NCBI RefSeq assembly: GCF_010015585.1
Contig: NW_022985075.1
Location: 124,001-188,000, forward strand
Direction: 5' to 3'
Length of the DNA stretch: 64,000 bases
DNA from: Eremomyces bilateralis CBS 781.70
Lineage: Eukaryota > Ascomycota > Dothideomycetes > Eremomycetales > Eremomycetaceae
In this document: positions 15,706 to 29,450 of the stretch, one piece after another
Position numbering within the stretch: position 1 is the stretch's first letter
Layout: every line of letters starts with the position of its first letter
The notes under the pieces: model-generated
Databases searched by the model: none
The model's input: the letters and a program-made list of their open reading frames with translations, nothing else
Told to the model about the DNA's origin: nothing
Made by a program: the position numbers and the translations under genes

Positions 15706-17428
15706 TCATTCCCATATTCCAAGGACTGTCATAACTCCAGCTCCCCCCCCAAGACTAATCAGTCCCACTGACACCTCTTTCCAGTCCGCATTGCTCAGTT
15801 CACCACGTAGCCAGTCCTCACTCCACATCTCCACCACTGCCACCCAGATTAAAACTCCGGCACTCAAAGCATCCATCGCCCCCACCGTTTGGATCGTTCT
15901 CGGATCGTTCTCATTGAAAGTGTGGCGGACGATGAGACCGATAGCCATACCAATCGGGGCTGTCACCGCAAACGCCACTCCGTAGAGTAGTTTGCTGAGA
16001 AGTGTCGGATGCCAGAGCGTAGCGATTCGGGCACCAAGCGCCAGACCTTCAAAGAGTTGATGGAGGAGGATGACGGCGAAGAGGACCGTAAAGTTGGCGG
16101 CGGGCGTCACAGTCAGTAAGACACCGAGCACTAGATATACTTATGTCAGATCGTCTATCGCTTCGTGGTGAGAGAAAATGGCAACCCACAGATCGAATGG
16201 AAAATCATTCCCGCTTCCATGATCATAACATGTAGCTTTTCCTTCTCATGCTGAGCGATTCCTTCCTGGTCCCATATTGCTAGGTCCCGCTCAATCGCTC
16301 TCGGACTCTTCATATCGCGTTGTTGTAGAGGTGCCAGGATGCGAGATGGATATATATCCGTGGATGTCCCGTGTTTTGCCCTGGACGAGAGATACCGAAG
16401 ACCTGCATAGTCCACCAAAAACGAAATGAAGACGCCCGCCATTGCAATAACGGTTGCTGTGCTCTCAAATGACAGCTCTCCAAGGCAGGGGTTAAGGAAT
16501 TGTAAGAATGCATGCGAAAGGAGCTGCAACTGTCAGTACTGGGAGTTGAGGGGCACAGGAGGTATACTTGCGTGAATAAAAATCGTTGCAATAATAACGC
16601 CCGTCCCAAATTGCTTGATAGCAGTGAAAACCAGACCATCTTTTCGTATACGGGTCCACTTTCTGATCCCGATAGGTCCCAGGACGGCTGTCGAACTCGT
16701 TAGCGGACAGACTTCTGGCTGGCCATCGAGACACGAACCGACGGAGCTGGTCGCTAGGACGATGAAGATGCTAGCCACTCGAAAGGTAAGGTCCGAGTCT
16801 CCAACTCGTTCTGCATCACACTTTGCGATGCCACCCATCTTGGCATGGCCGTGTCCTCCAGAGCTCTCTTCCATAGAAGACGACCCTTCTCTATTACTGC
16901 TTTCGCCGGCACCGTGTCCGCCATGAGCCGGCTCATGGCTGTGGCCTGGAGCTTCAGGAGACTCATTGTGGCTAGTATCTTGCACGTGTCTGTCATCGTC
17001 ATTTCTTAGAACCTGAGCTTCGCGGAGTTCCGCAACTTCCGTCCAGCTACATTCCATCTCATGAAAGTTATGGACCTACCCTGGTTGGATTTGAGACGGT
17101 ACACTGTCTGTTTGGCCCGGAGCGGACGCAGCTGTTGGAGTGGAACCATCTACAAGGCAGAATCTACAAGAGGAATCAGTCAAGATATTAGCCGCCCCTG
17201 AGCTGTTGCCTTACAGCTGGCCCCCCTCAATATGGCAATCTGGTCTTGCAGAAGGCGTGACTTGCGGCAGATCGGTAGGCCTTTCACAGTATCTAGAATT
17301 CATTAGCGAGTTGATTATTCGAGAAATTCGGATAAAACAGACTCTATATTGCCATTCCAATGACACTGCGAAACGACCGGGCTGACTGCCAAAGAAATAC
17401 TAAAGATTGAAAACAATAACCGCCTCAT
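15706..17428 (-). CDS. ZIP family zinc/iron transporter with signal peptide
   Basis: Multi-exon gene on the minus strand. The core exons are well supported: up to 16739, 16572-16687, 16190-16523 and 15706-16130. They encode the ZIP fold with a His-rich segment (GHSHEPAHGGHG), TM regions and the TM5 metal motif HQLFEGLALG preceded by the TM4 FHS motif. The intron 16524-16571 is GC-AG: only a GCAAGT donor restores the conserved FIH-LLSHAF junction. Upstream exons at 17367-17428, 17215-17292 and 17080-17163 add a signal peptide starting MRRLLFSIFSISLAV and a Cys/His segment DCHIEGGQLFC, in phase throughout; the joint between 17080 and about 17046 is unsettled (33-bp intron or a later acceptor). 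The role is plasma-membrane uptake of Zn2+ (or Fe2+). It diverges from the nicotianamine synthase gene. Confidence 0.88.
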
Positions 17429-18411
17429 AGCGAAGAATGAGTTGAGAAAGGAAATGCATTGGAGCGCGATGCCATAGCAGCGCTCCCATCTAGGTGGATG
17501 GAGGTAGGTTGATATAACATGCAACCAGGGAAGCTGTACAAGCTGGAAACACCCACCGAGAACGGCGAGAATATATTCCGTACGGTCCGAGGACTTCGTA
17601 GTAAAGCCTATCAACTTGCTGCGGCTCAAAGTGAATAGATATATTCCGAGACGTGCCAAGCTACGTTTCAAACGTTTGGGTCAATCTAGTTGGGATTGGC
17701 AGGGGTTGGCGTTGACGCTGAAGGAGACACAAATCGAGGTGATCAGCACGATGACCTGCTGGGGAAGCGCTCACTGGGAAAAGTAACGATCACTTGGTGC
17801 GAGATTCATTACATCTGTACAACTATTCCATGCAAGAATTCTAGTGAGACCGATGTAGTGTAGGTATTTTCTGTGTTCAAATCCCCCCAGGGTTTAGGGC
17901 ACCCAAGATTCTGTCGGTAAGGAATCTGCAGTACATGTGTTACTATCTGACGAGTTATACAAGCAGAACCGGCACCACTGCAGACTCCCGCAAGATGATG
18001 TTGAGGTTTAAGACTGAAAAGCGACCACAGAGGATAGACGGATTGGAAAGGAGACGGAGTAAGTGTTTCGAAGACAGACATGGTCAAAATTCACCTGGTA
18101 GACTCACACCGGTTGCGAGGATGGTTTTGAAAAAATAATAAGACACCCGGAGTAAAAGTAAGGCCGAATGAAAGCAGAATAATGGGAATGTCTTACCGTA
18201 CCGTTTGCAAGTTTGTTTATAAAAGATTCTGTTTGTCGGCAGCGAACCATCAAGGTTTCCATCAAGGTACGCTGGAGACACCCCAGGTTGCCCTATTATA
18301 CGACTGGAGATTGGGATGCCGTAAGTATCTTGGGACTGGCTTCACTTGGTATCAGAATCGAGCCGAACGTTTTCCCTTCATTGGACAGTAGTGTGGAGAG
18401 AATCGCCAGCG
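17429..18411. promoter_or_regulatory. Divergent intergenic region between ZIP transporter and nicotianamine synthase
   Basis: The 983 bp separate the two divergent start codons and must hold both promoters. There is no supported gene within it. The clearest signal is a pair of CAAGGT hexamers near the synthase side (listed separately). I found no CAAGGT or reverse complement in the half nearer the transporter. Confidence 0.6.
18251..18268 (+). promoter_or_regulatory. Paired CAAGGT motifs (candidate ZafA zinc-response sites)
   Basis: CAAGGT occurs at 18251-18256 and again at 18263-18268, both on the plus strand, about 145-160 bp upstream of the nicotianamine synthase ATG. In Aspergillus fumigatus the zinc-starvation activator ZafA is known to bind CAAGGT in front of zinc-uptake genes. 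Two copies with 12-bp spacing are unlikely by chance at this position. Function is inferred. Confidence 0.5.
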
Positions 18412-19539
18412 ATGACTACCCCAACAGACCGAACCGCAACGGTTCCAGTGCAGTTTCAAAAGCCGTATCGAGGATCTGTGGCGGAGACTTCTGGCCTTGT
18501 TACCCCTCCGGATGACACGGGCAGTCCGCCGACACTGCATGACGATAGCGCTCGAGAGGAGGCTCATGATATAATAGAGCGGCTGGTTGGAATCTATCAC
18601 CAATTGCTCGCACACCGATCCTTGGCTCCAAGTGCAGAGGTTTCCGAAACGTTCGGTCGTCTCGTGCGTGCATGCATCGAGCCTCGCAGCAAACAGACCG
18701 TCGAACTCGTCTTGTCGGATCCGGTCCTGAACAAGATTGCCTCGAGCCTGCTCAAGCTGTGCTCTGCTGGAGAGACAGAGCTGGAACTGTCTTGGGCTGG
18801 ACGCATTGTCAATTCTGGTGCTGGGAGCAACCAGTCTGGTAAGCACAGTGCATACACACTCTTCCAAGTGCCATCTGCTGACGGACAGTTCCGCAGCACA
18901 AGAGACGCTGCGAGCGTTCCCCTATTACGACAACTATGCCAGGCTCAGCCGCCTCGAATGCGCCAATCTCGTTACGCTATTACCCTCGGATCCAACATCC
19001 ATTGCATTCATTGGATGCGGTCCCCTTCCTCTCTCGTCATTCTGTCTGTCTGACCGATTTCCCGCCGCGCGAATCAATAATATCGACCACGACGTGACCG
19101 CCATCAGCCATGCCGAGAAACTATCCAATGCGCTCGGATACGATCAGGTTACGTTCACTCATGCATCGGCGGCAGAGTGTGGGAGCCTTCGGACGTTTGA
19201 CGTCGTGCTCATGGCCGCGTTAGTCGGGATGGACCAGGGCGAGAAGATGAATTTGGTGCGGAATCTCGCGGCGGAGATGCGCCCTGGAGCGATCCTGTGC
19301 ATCCGGAGCGCGCATTCGTTGAGGTCGTTGCTCTATCCGGTAAGCTGGCGCTTTGAATCTGCCACGAGGGCTATCGTGGTCGAGACATGCTAAGCAAGTG
19401 ATCACAGACGATTGAGATGTCCATTCACTGCCTTGATATAGGACTGAGACCACTTCTGGAGGTTCATCCGTGGCATGACGTCGTCAACTCGACACTATTT
19501 ACGAGTGTAGAGAGGACGGATGCCGGAGATGACAGGTGA
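18412..19539 (+). CDS. Nicotianamine synthase family protein
   Basis: Three exons, 18412-18838, 18897-19339 and 19408-19539, join in phase to a 333-residue protein, close to the usual NAS size. The signature blocks are present in order: LELSWAG then FPYYDNYARLSRLE around the first intron, the nucleotide-binding-like motif FIGCGPLPLSSFCL, NIDHD, the segment FDVVLMAALVGMDQGEK, and MRPGAILCIRSAHSLRSLLYP followed in exon 3 by LLEVHPWHDVVNS. The family condenses aminocarboxypropyl groups from S-adenosylmethionine into nicotianamine-type metal chelators; fungal members are known, for example in Neurospora. It is cytosolic by inference, as no targeting signal is seen. It diverges from a ZIP transporter and has two upstream CAAGGT motifs, which suggests a role in zinc handling. 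Confidence 0.92.
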
Positions 19540-20266: not shown

Positions 20267-21200
20267 ATGACAACACCCCGAGTCTTTCTCGTCCGACATG
20301 GAGAGACGGAATGGAGCTTGAACGGCCAACATACAGGCACCACTGAGCTTGAACTCACTGCCAATGGCGAAAAGCGTGTGTTGGAGACGGGGAAGGCATT
20401 GGTCGGCAACGATCGATTGATCGTACCCAAGAACCTTGCCCACATGTACGTTTCGCGGCTCCTGACACTATTCCAGACACAGACATTTAATGGCGACCCA
20501 GCTACGTATCGCCGCGAAAACGCGCTCAAAGGACGCTCGAGTTGCTTCGGATCGGCTGCAAGGAGCGATACCCATGGAACGAGCAGCGTGAGCAGAGCGA
20601 CGGCGCGATTCGGACGCAGGCGGAAGTGGAAATCACGGAGGATATCCGAGAGTGGGACTACGGTGCCTATGAAGGATTGACGACCAAGCAGATCCGCGAG
20701 ATGCGGTTGCGGGGAGGGGAGAGCGAGAATTGGGATATCTGGCGAGATGGGTGCCCAGGCGGCGCGTGAGTTTCGCACTCACTTACCGAAGAGGAGCAAT
20801 TGCTGAACATCTCAGGTCTCCCCACCAGATCACGGAACGGCTGGATCGACTGATCAATGATCTGCGGTCCAGGTTCCATGCTAATGCGATTGGAAAGCCC
20901 AAGGGCAAAGCCGGCCCTTGCGATGTGTTGATCGTTGCCCACGGACACATTCTCAGGGCATTTGCGGCTCGATGGGTGAAGCGAGATGTAGCGACCAATC
21001 CGTCTCTAATTATGGAGGCCGGCGGAGTGGGAACCCTGAGGTGAGTCATGGTTGTTAGCCTGGATATTGAGGGAGTCGTCGTTGACTCGATTAGTTACGA
21101 GCATCATAGTATCGACGAGCCGGCCATCTTGCTTGGAGGCGGCTTCATGGTGGACATCGTCGAGGAGATAGAGCAGGAGAAGAATCAGACGAAAGGCTAA
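20267..21200 (+). CDS. shb17: Shb17-type sedoheptulose-1,7-bisphosphatase (histidine phosphatase family)
   Basis: Four exons, 20267-20445, 20502-20765, 20816-21040 and 21095-21200, give a 257-residue protein (yeast Shb17 has 271). The N-terminal phosphohistidine loop reads [16 protein letters not shown], followed by [33 protein letters not shown] and the second catalytic-His motif [14 protein letters not shown]; the C-terminus reads [11 protein letters not shown]. These match yeast Shb17 closely and differ from ordinary phosphoglycerate mutases. In yeast the enzyme removes the C1 phosphate of sedoheptulose-1,7-bisphosphate and drives carbon into the non-oxidative pentose phosphate pathway. 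The intron phases all agree, including the first intron, which restores the IYVSPRK motif. Confidence 0.88.
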
Positions 21201-24976
<3,776 letters not shown>

Positions 24977-27681: not shown

Positions 27682-29450
27682 ATGGCCGGCTCTTTGCCTC
27701 TTTATGATTGGCGTATTCTGCTGCTTATGGGTAACTGGAGCTTTGGATGCTGCTGGAAAGCAAACAAGGCAGACGGTATCCACTTGTATGGATTTCTTTT
27801 CCCTCGTGTGGATGGGTGCTAACCTTTGTAGACTCTGATCTGGCAAAACAGGCTGCAGCTGCCCATCGCCGCATCAGGCGAAGTGGTGGAGCCCATGGAC
27901 ATTGCGGAGAAAGCGATGATGATGATGATGACGATGAGGACGAATTTGACTATGATACGCCGTGGCATATAGCTGCTGTCGGGATCATCTTCGCCATTAG
28001 CACGTCCTCTGCTTGTTTCCCTATGATTGTGAAGACATACCCAAGACTTCGGGTTCCCACGTCTTTTCTTTTCTTTGCTCGTCACTTCGGGACCGGAGTG
28101 CTACTCGCAGCGGCGTTTGTTCATCTCCTCACCGAAGCGTTCGTCTCATTGACAAGCAAATGTCTCTCCGACTATTGGACCAAGAGGTACCCCTCAACAG
28201 CAGGCGCCGTCTGTCTTGGGGCGATTCTTCTCGTCACACTCGTAGAGATGATCTTCAGTCCGAATCGTCATCTCATCCGAGAGAAAGTCCAATACATCGA
28301 GGAGCTTGATGAATCGAGATCCAGCCAGGACGAGGCGGTGTTTCGTCTAAAAGAGATCAATATTGGTCACAAACTCGAAATTCCGGACTATCTTAGAAGC
28401 TATGCAAATGAAGCTGGAACGCATCATACGCACCATCGCCGAACTTTTTTCCGCAGGAGCAGCGGCATATTTGGAGGTCACCTTGAGCTTCCTCGATTTA
28501 GCAGGATCAATCATGGTCCTGGGATCCGAAAAAGTCACACAGCATGGCGTGACAGTTACCATCCGCGTTTCGGAGGAGCCTATCATCCCCCGCTTCCTCG
28601 ATCGAGCCACCACCACACCCATCGGGCCCCGATAAGTGGCCTTGGCACTGGCAACTTCAATCGGAACTCAACAAGCATCGGAAAAGGGCTAGATGACTTT
28701 ATAGAAAATGCGAAGAGACAAAATTATGAATTGGACGAAATTAAGAAGGCAAGGAAGAGCCGCCAGTCAACTAGGTTTCAAGGAGCTATAAACGAGAGCC
28801 AAGAAGACCTGGTCCAACCACAAGAGATGCCAAATGAGCGAAAGCTAAAGGTTACGGAGGTTGAAAGCAACTTTGAGTCGATCCCATTGTCACCAGAGCA
28901 GAAGTTCCAAAGGATGAGAGTCCAAGTCACGATGCTGGAGATGGGTGTTCTCTTCCATGGGATCTTCATCGGAATGTCTCTCAGTGTCGCAGTTGGCATG
29001 GAATTTAACATGTTCCTCGTTGCCTTCGGGTTTCACCAATTGTTCGAGGGGTTGGCTCTAGGCTCACGAATCGCGGCATTGCCGTGGCCGAAAGGTTCGA
29101 AAAAGCCGTGGTTGATGTGTTTATCATACGGAGCAACGTAAGTCTTCCCCTGCTTCACACTTTCACATCGTCCAGACACTCATGATTCTAGTGCGCCGGT
29201 CGGCCAGGCACTTGGAGTAGCCACTCATTCAGCGTATGACCCAAGCTCAGACACCGGGCTCATCTTGGTCGGAATCTTCAATGCTATTTCATCTGGACTC
29301 CTGATCTATGCTGCTCTCGTCGAGCTTCTGTCCGAAGACTTTTTGAGCGACGAAAGTTGGCGTGTTTTGCGAGGGGCTCGACGTAGCTTTGCGTTCTTTA
29401 TGGTATTTCTGGGTGCTTTCTTAATGTCTTTGGTTGCGGCGTGGGCGTAA
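27682..29450 (+). CDS. ZIP family metal transporter with long acidic and His-rich regions
   Basis: Exons 27682-27775, 27832-29137 and 29192-29450 are in phase and give about 552 aa. The start ATG has a good context (ACCATGG); a second reading frame from 27401 is open but has the wrong phase for the first intron. N-terminal features are NKAD, a run of Asp residues (GAT repeats at 27917-27940) and TM1. RHFGTGVLLAAAFVHLL marks TM2-3. A cytosolic loop of about 200 residues holds His clusters (THHTHHRR, SSHHHTHRAP). TM4-5 carry LFHGIFIG and the metal-site motif HQLFEGLALGSRIAAL; three more TMs follow. It transports Zn2+ or a related divalent metal into the cytosol; whether it sits in the plasma membrane or an organelle is not visible. 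It lies 8 kb from the nicotianamine synthase. Confidence 0.88.

Follow-up and report, generated by a model that had tools for sequence, protein, structure and literature searches.

Background

In several fungi the gene of a zinc importer stands head to head with the gene of a zinc-binding partner. The aspf2-zrfC pair of Aspergillus fumigatus and the PRA1-ZRT1 pair of Candida each combine a secreted zinc-binding protein with a ZIP transporter of the ZrfC/Zrt1 type, and both genes are transcribed from one promoter that carries several ZafA sites (PMC6070888, PMC3386192). ZIP transporters of the ZrfC/Zrt1 group often face a secreted zincophore (Aspf2/Pra1) in this way, and only the direct orthologues of ZRT1 adjoin orthologues of PRA1 (PMC3386192). 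The ZafA binding motif was described in A. fumigatus as the 15-bp sequence DYYVYCARGGTVYYY with the essential core CARGGT; it functions up to 1.2 kb away from the start codon, the count also includes sites that deviate from it at one or two positions outside the core, and divergent genes less than 1200 bp apart are jointly controlled by ZafA (PMC6070888). Mutation of three sites of the aspf2-zrfC promoter reduced the activity of two reporters 523-fold and 611-fold, respectively, and nicotianamine is not mentioned in the main text of the same study (PMC6070888).

Nicotianamine synthases (NAS) of Neurospora crassa and other fungi belong to class III, i.e. short core enzymes encoded by genes with introns; fungal NAS proteins are active in vitro, and N. 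crassa makes nicotianamine, as cited in the same paper (PMC10248798). Fungal NAS are thus known as enzymes, and the literature consulted says little about what they do in the fungus itself and how they are controlled there. In bacteria, NAS-like enzymes serve metal uptake as part of the opine metallophore operons for staphylopine and pseudopaline. Genes homologous to these operons form a copper-responsive cluster in the fungus Pseudogymnoascus destructans (PMC12113139), and three putative genes for the synthesis of nicotianamine appear, with small values, in a study of zinc tolerance in Suillus luteus (PMC11373636).

Results and discussion

A nicotianamine synthase gene faces a ZIP transporter gene

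The window, by which we mean the whole stretch of 64,000 nucleotides that was analysed, corresponds to positions 124001-188000 of contig C9 (G000:C9:124001-188000) in the genome of Eremomyces bilateralis CBS 781.70, which comprises 26.6 Mb in 62 contigs. The NAS and the ZIP transporter encoded in the window match proteins of this strain. Since the species belongs to the Eremomycetales, an order of the Dothideomycetes, the comparison across Eurotiales suggested in the initial annotation is not applicable. By contrast, its description of the two genes as divergent around positions 17429-18411 was confirmed for both genes and for the limits of the intergenic region. The locus contains the following features:

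15706..17428, minus strand: ZrfC/Zrt1-related ZIP zinc transporter gene, in which two N-terminal Cys/His repeats follow a signal-peptide-like start
17429..18411, no strand: divergent promoter region of 983 bp between the ZIP gene (minus) and the NAS gene (plus)
17888..17893, plus strand: isolated CAGGGT core with poor flanks (four substitutions)
18218..18224, plus strand: TATAAAA stretch upstream of both candidate sites, read from the sequence
18246..18260, plus strand: candidate ZafA-type site 1, ACCATCAAGGTTTCC, one substitution from DYYVYCARGGTVYYY, outside the core
18258..18272, plus strand: candidate ZafA-type site 2, TCCATCAAGGTACGC, one substitution from DYYVYCARGGTVYYY, outside the core
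18412..19539, plus strand: nicotianamine synthase gene, exons 18412-18838, 18897-19339 and 19408-19539 (own model)

The NAS gene extends in our model from the ATG at position 18412 to a TGA ending at 19539 and encodes 333 amino acids, interrupted by two introns. The NAS domain PF03059 is present over its whole length (E 1.1e-57, profile positions 5-269 of 276 in Pfam), which bears out the earlier assignment as a full-length fungal NAS. The model agrees with the deposited E. bilateralis protein P0001 except around intron 1, which is spliced differently in P0001. The genome search yielded no second NAS, both NAS matches being exons of the window gene, and a profile search for fungal NAS returned mostly plant and bacterial proteins among the matches listed (120 of 655). 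In AtNAS1, the residues E73, E77 and Y106 and the VGMD motif are essential, the enzyme being inactive when they were changed (PMC10248798). An alignment of 12 NAS demonstrated that the window protein retains the equivalents of all three residues, with the Cys and both Glu of the stretch LCSAGETELE and the Tyr of FPYYDNY, together with an exact VGMD. Because these elements are kept, the product of the enzyme is likely to be true nicotianamine. Among prokaryotic NAS loci, an AALVG motif occurs in 35 of the 60 best BLAST hits (56 of 57 loci), and one of these 35 reads AALVGMD. The start of the window NAS is, by eye, not signal-peptide-like.

The ZIP gene is transcribed in the opposite direction (ATG at 17428, stop at 15706) and encodes 470 amino acids with six introns, one of them of the GC-AG type. 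The N-terminus MRRLLFSIFSISLAVSPVVSQ is signal-peptide-like by eye, in line with the secreted-type N-terminus noted initially. It is followed by two repeats, CHWNGNIEYC and CHIEGGQLFC, and by a His-rich stretch that precedes the ZIP core. Both repeats have the form CH-x7-C and lack the second His of the extracellular CHxH...C repeats. The ZIP domain PF02535 is present, and the model contains FHSILLG and HQLFEGLALG, corresponding to FHS and HQxFEG, which we take to be the metal-site motifs of ZIP proteins. The deposited protein P0035 (397 aa) begins inside our model and lacks its first 77 residues; from its fifth residue on it is contained in the model letter for letter. As the additional N-terminus resembles that of the full-length protein P0036 of Aulographum hederae (QCHSEGDKEYC and DCHTVGNEVVC; BLAST match from residue 3), the longer gene of the initial annotation is probably right. 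In our model an intron of 51 nt replaces one of 33 nt assumed at first, and a further intron was adopted from the deposited model; the search for ZIP relatives had used the first model, with the 33-nt intron, as query. The GC-AG intron (16524-16571, minus strand, donor GCAAGT) lies within the conserved IHLLSHAF stretch, and the deposited protein shares this exon junction.

A tree of ten ZIP proteins was calculated from six of the ten ZIP genes counted in the genome and from four relatives out of 120 listed; it does not include the distant or partial ZIPs encoded on C38, on C30 and at C9:776 or the broken one on C18. The tree was rooted at the midpoint, and the row of the ZIP encoded on contig C39 was joined by hand. 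Subject to the long-branch warning issued by the program for these ten rows, the window ZIP groups with ZIPs of Aulographum and Tothia (95/90) and falls not inside the ZrfC group but as a sister to the ZrfC/Zrt1 group. In the ten-row tree the latter (91/96) comprises the C39 ZIP, which is paired with an aspf2 gene, P0088 of A. fumigatus and P0043 of Blastomyces. P0088 was classed as ZrfC-like because it has four CH-H repeats; this name was assigned here and is not that of the record. A second ZIP gene, of another group, is located about 8 kb past NAS (27747-29438, plus strand) and has no CCATCAAGGT upstream.

Candidate ZafA-type sites in the divergent promoter

The initial annotation had reported two CAAGGT motifs 12 bp apart upstream of NAS as the published ZafA target. 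The two cores are indeed present at 18251-18256 and 18263-18268 on the plus strand, 12 bp from start to start with a gap of 6 bp, and they were located 161 to 144 bp before the ATG. ZafA-type sites are thus found there, but the published site is a 15-bp motif and not the bare CAAGGT. With respect to this motif, two sites with a CARGGT core and one substitution each lie within the 1.2 kb upstream of NAS, and the promoter length of 983 bp is below the limit of 1200 bp that applies to co-regulated divergent pairs in A. fumigatus (PMC6070888). The candidate sites lie 144-161 bp from the ATG of NAS but 823-840 bp from the start of the ZIP gene. Since their 15-mers overlap by 3 bp, it is doubtful that both sites are occupied at the same time. 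The CAGGGT core at 17888..17893 is probably not a site, as judged from its flanks.

At least two CAAGGT occurred in 544 of 5000 dinucleotide shuffles of the promoter, so that the hexamers alone are unremarkable, whereas at least two sites with at most one substitution from DYYVYCARGGTVYYY occurred in only 5 of 5000 shuffles. Pairs of CAAGGT at exactly 12 bp are found 16 times in the genome and 19 times in the reversed control. Bare CAAGGT counts and the 12-bp spacing, being as frequent as expected by chance, were consequently discarded as evidence. Both candidate sites share the 10-mer CCATCAAGGT, and its two copies in the promoter are the only ones in the 64-kb window. The corresponding Poisson probability is about 8e-6, rising to 5e-5 when only 40% of the genome is taken to hold sites; the 10-mer was chosen post hoc, and as the extended motif CCATCAAGGT(A) was selected after inspection of the window and the zinc genes, these values are optimistic.

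Genome-wide distribution of the extended motif

The distribution of the motif was compared with ten promoters of zinc genes that were chosen by their proteins, namely a ZafA-like regulator gene and nine ZIP genes, the one in the window pair being excluded. The ZIP genes of the genome were compiled from 18 protein match pieces grouped by hand, and the first base of the domain match served as the start of several of them, so that their true promoters may lie further upstream. The 11-mer CCATCAAGGTA is present 26 times in the 26.6-Mb genome, compared with 15 times for the reversed control. Six of the 26 copies fall within 1.2 kb before four of the ten zinc genes, where 0.01-0.03 were expected: 120 bp upstream of the ZafA-like gene, 524 and 354 bp before the ZIP gene at C1:1708132, 664 bp from the top of the open frame of the ZIP gene at C9:776, and 449 and 365 bp before the aspf2-paired ZIP gene on C39. 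Site 2 of the NAS promoter (18258..18272) is one further of the 26 copies. The 1.2-kb promoters of the other six zinc genes contain no CCATCAAGGTA, a result that counts against the reading proposed below. According to our own reading of the sequences, the ZIP encoded on C1 may be of the Zrt2 type and that at C9:776 Zrt3-like.

The shorter CCATCAAGGT was detected 111 times, compared with 29 times for the reversed control, and many of its places lack a known link to zinc; these places were assessed among the matches listed (100 of 111) and those within the CCATCAAGGTA list. The strict motif DYYVYCARGGTVYYY proved too diffuse for this purpose, with 229 matches genome-wide and 166 for the reversed control, and both window sites need a substitution to match it. 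Taken together, the link to ZafA appears much stronger from the genome-wide motif test than from bare hexamers.

The candidate regulator gene is the following:

G000:C1:1258525-1260186: candidate ZafA/Zap1-type activator gene, best match to the Zap1 fingers

This gene is an open frame of 553 amino acids whose first finger contains CxW. It is the best match in the genome to a query stretch with the Zap1 fingers (E 2.4e-20, the next being 3.9e-13). A PDB search with the fingers of the ZafA-like protein found, among the matches listed (60 of 178), other zinc-finger proteins, and its identity therefore rests on the Zap1 query.

Zincophore genes paired with ZIP genes

HRXXH (Aspf2) matches occur at two places in the genome, on C39 and on C18, each head to head with a ZIP gene. 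On C39, two CCATCAAGGTA sites lie in the stretch that separates the paired genes, and the ZIP retains the repeats CHVHGTDNFC and CHFHAGVEHC. The pair on C18 (G000:C18:531092-533824) lies near the contig end and looks decayed: the Aspf2 match covers about half of the family, the ZIP translation jumps from the N-terminal repeats straight to the later membrane part, and no CCATCAAGGT is present between the two genes.

The partner of the window ZIP is NAS and not a secreted HRXXH/Aspf2 protein. Because aspf2-ZIP pairs stand head to head in this genome and PRA1-ZRT1 pairs do so elsewhere, the window pair is, as judged from gene order and protein similarity, the zincophore-ZIP layout beside a ZIP of the sister group, NAS standing where the zincophore would be. 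In aspf2-zrfC the partner is a secreted zinc-binding protein, whereas here it is an enzyme that produces a small chelator; the ZIP, too, differs in that it belongs to the sister group and carries N-terminal repeats of the CHxx instead of the CHxH kind. The initial annotation had considered the module undescribed in fungi. No NAS-ZIP pair and no ZafA-controlled NAS was found among the matches listed in the mostly open-access literature on NAS and fungal zinc control, and the same matches connect the fungal class III NAS in print, which the window enzyme resembles, neither with a ZIP gene nor with a ZafA site. Since a ZIP and a zinc binder arranged head to head under ZafA/Zap1 are already known from aspf2-zrfC and PRA1-ZRT1, only the kind of binder is new.

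The locus also recalls the bacterial opine metallophore operons, from which it differs in that neither an opine dehydrogenase nor an exporter was noticed there by eye. In 57 prokaryotic NAS loci with flanks of up to 4 kb, neither BLAST with the ZIPs of this genome nor a small home-made HMM detected a ZIP-like ORF, a search that remote ZIPs could escape. The cluster of P. destructans, likewise a case of fungal genes of this kind, is unlike the window locus in its response to copper and its gene content, and no ZIP-NAS pair was found in the part of its description available to us (PMC12113139).

A putative zinc-starvation module

We propose that the NAS-ZIP pair, known together with its motif from one genome, is probably a zinc-starvation module. 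At low zinc, an activator of the ZafA/Zap1 type would bind the tandem sites at 18246-18272 and turn on NAS and ZIP from the single 983-bp promoter. As the candidate sites are near NAS, this gene would be driven strongly, and ZIP would be driven through the shared promoter. The ZIP, with its Cys/His-bearing N-terminus on the extracellular side, would bring zinc across the plasma membrane, and NAS would convert three S-adenosylmethionines into nicotianamine, which would bind the imported zinc intracellularly, serving as a soluble buffer or carrier, and pass it on. Joint control of both genes by a ZafA-type activator is likely, as far as promoter composition can indicate. The TATAAAA stretch upstream of the sites and the distance of the sites from the start of the ZIP gene count against this model.

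That distance is also an argument for control of NAS only, the ZIP being a chance neighbour or under its own control and the chelator serving nickel, copper or iron. The sites lie much nearer to NAS than to the ZIP start, several metals are bound by nicotianamine (PMC10341464), and the P. destructans cluster with its opine-metallophore-type genes responds to copper (PMC12113139). However, the window ZIP is placed in the tree next to the Zrt1/ZrfC group, whose members are under zinc control in other fungi, and divergent pairs of A. fumigatus less than 1200 bp apart respond together (PMC6070888), so that control of NAS only is regarded as unlikely. It is very improbable that the sites are mere chance matches and the head-to-head order accidental: the frequency of at least two CAAGGT in the shuffles (544 of 5000) and a 12-bp spacing no rarer than in the control would agree with chance, but CCATCAAGGT is rare, doubled here and common to the promoters of the zafA-like gene, ZIP genes and an aspf2-ZIP pair.

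Alternatively, nicotianamine or a product derived from it might be secreted and act outside the cell as a small-molecule zincophore, delivering zinc back to the ZIP in the manner of the protein zincophore Aspf2/Pra1. The nicotianamine-like metallophore of bacterial zinc competition is reportedly exported. As judged by eye, NAS does not begin like a secreted protein, and the adjacent ORFs, likewise read by eye, showed neither an exporter nor an opine dehydrogenase; ZIPs, as far as is known, carry free ions. A search of the genome for Staph_opine_DH gave no match, the control of the same search being silent too, and OPT-type carriers are encoded elsewhere in the genome, unlinked to the NAS-ZIP locus. 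In spite of the position of NAS in the head-to-head slot of aspf2 next to a related ZIP, as on C39 and in other fungi (PMC3386192), and of the service of the bacterial metallophore in zinc competition (PMC5666155), secretion therefore seems quite unlikely. The preferred reading remains a zinc-starvation module with intracellular nicotianamine.

If this reading is correct, NAS is under the control of the zinc-starvation switch and has an importer as its partner, and would consequently serve zinc uptake. The pair of zincophore and importer would then be one form of a wider arrangement of importer and chelator, in which proteins and small molecules are interchangeable as chelators. As a tentative extension, to which we give less than even weight, the slot beside importers of the Zrt1 family may be interchangeable, with NAS taking the place of the protein zincophore under the same ZafA switch and its small-molecule carrier acting inside or outside the cell.

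Neighbouring genes and further motif occurrences

Downstream of NAS, a histidine-phosphatase-like gene (20267-21200, plus strand) and an ARG5,6-like arginine gene (22107-24533, plus strand) were named from their translations. Elsewhere in the genome, two CCATCAAGGT lie 95 bp apart at G000:C12:271573-271677 near genes for a dihydrouridine synthase and a FYVE protein; no zinc gene is evident near this pair, which counts against the proposed reading of the motif. Three CCATCAAGGTA occur within 500 bp (G000:C1:1016475-1016975) before frames with two PHGDHW stretches, one of them PHGDHWHC. These frames begin with a signal-peptide-like stretch and end in a hydrophobic C-terminal tail, are divergent from a carnosine N-methyltransferase-like gene and gave no Pfam hit; their product is perhaps a zinc-binding cell-surface protein. 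Finally, a CAAGGT pair ending in CCATCAAGGTA was detected at G000:C5:1419809-1419827, shortly upstream of an apparent protein in which several CCHC zinc knuckles were recognized by eye.
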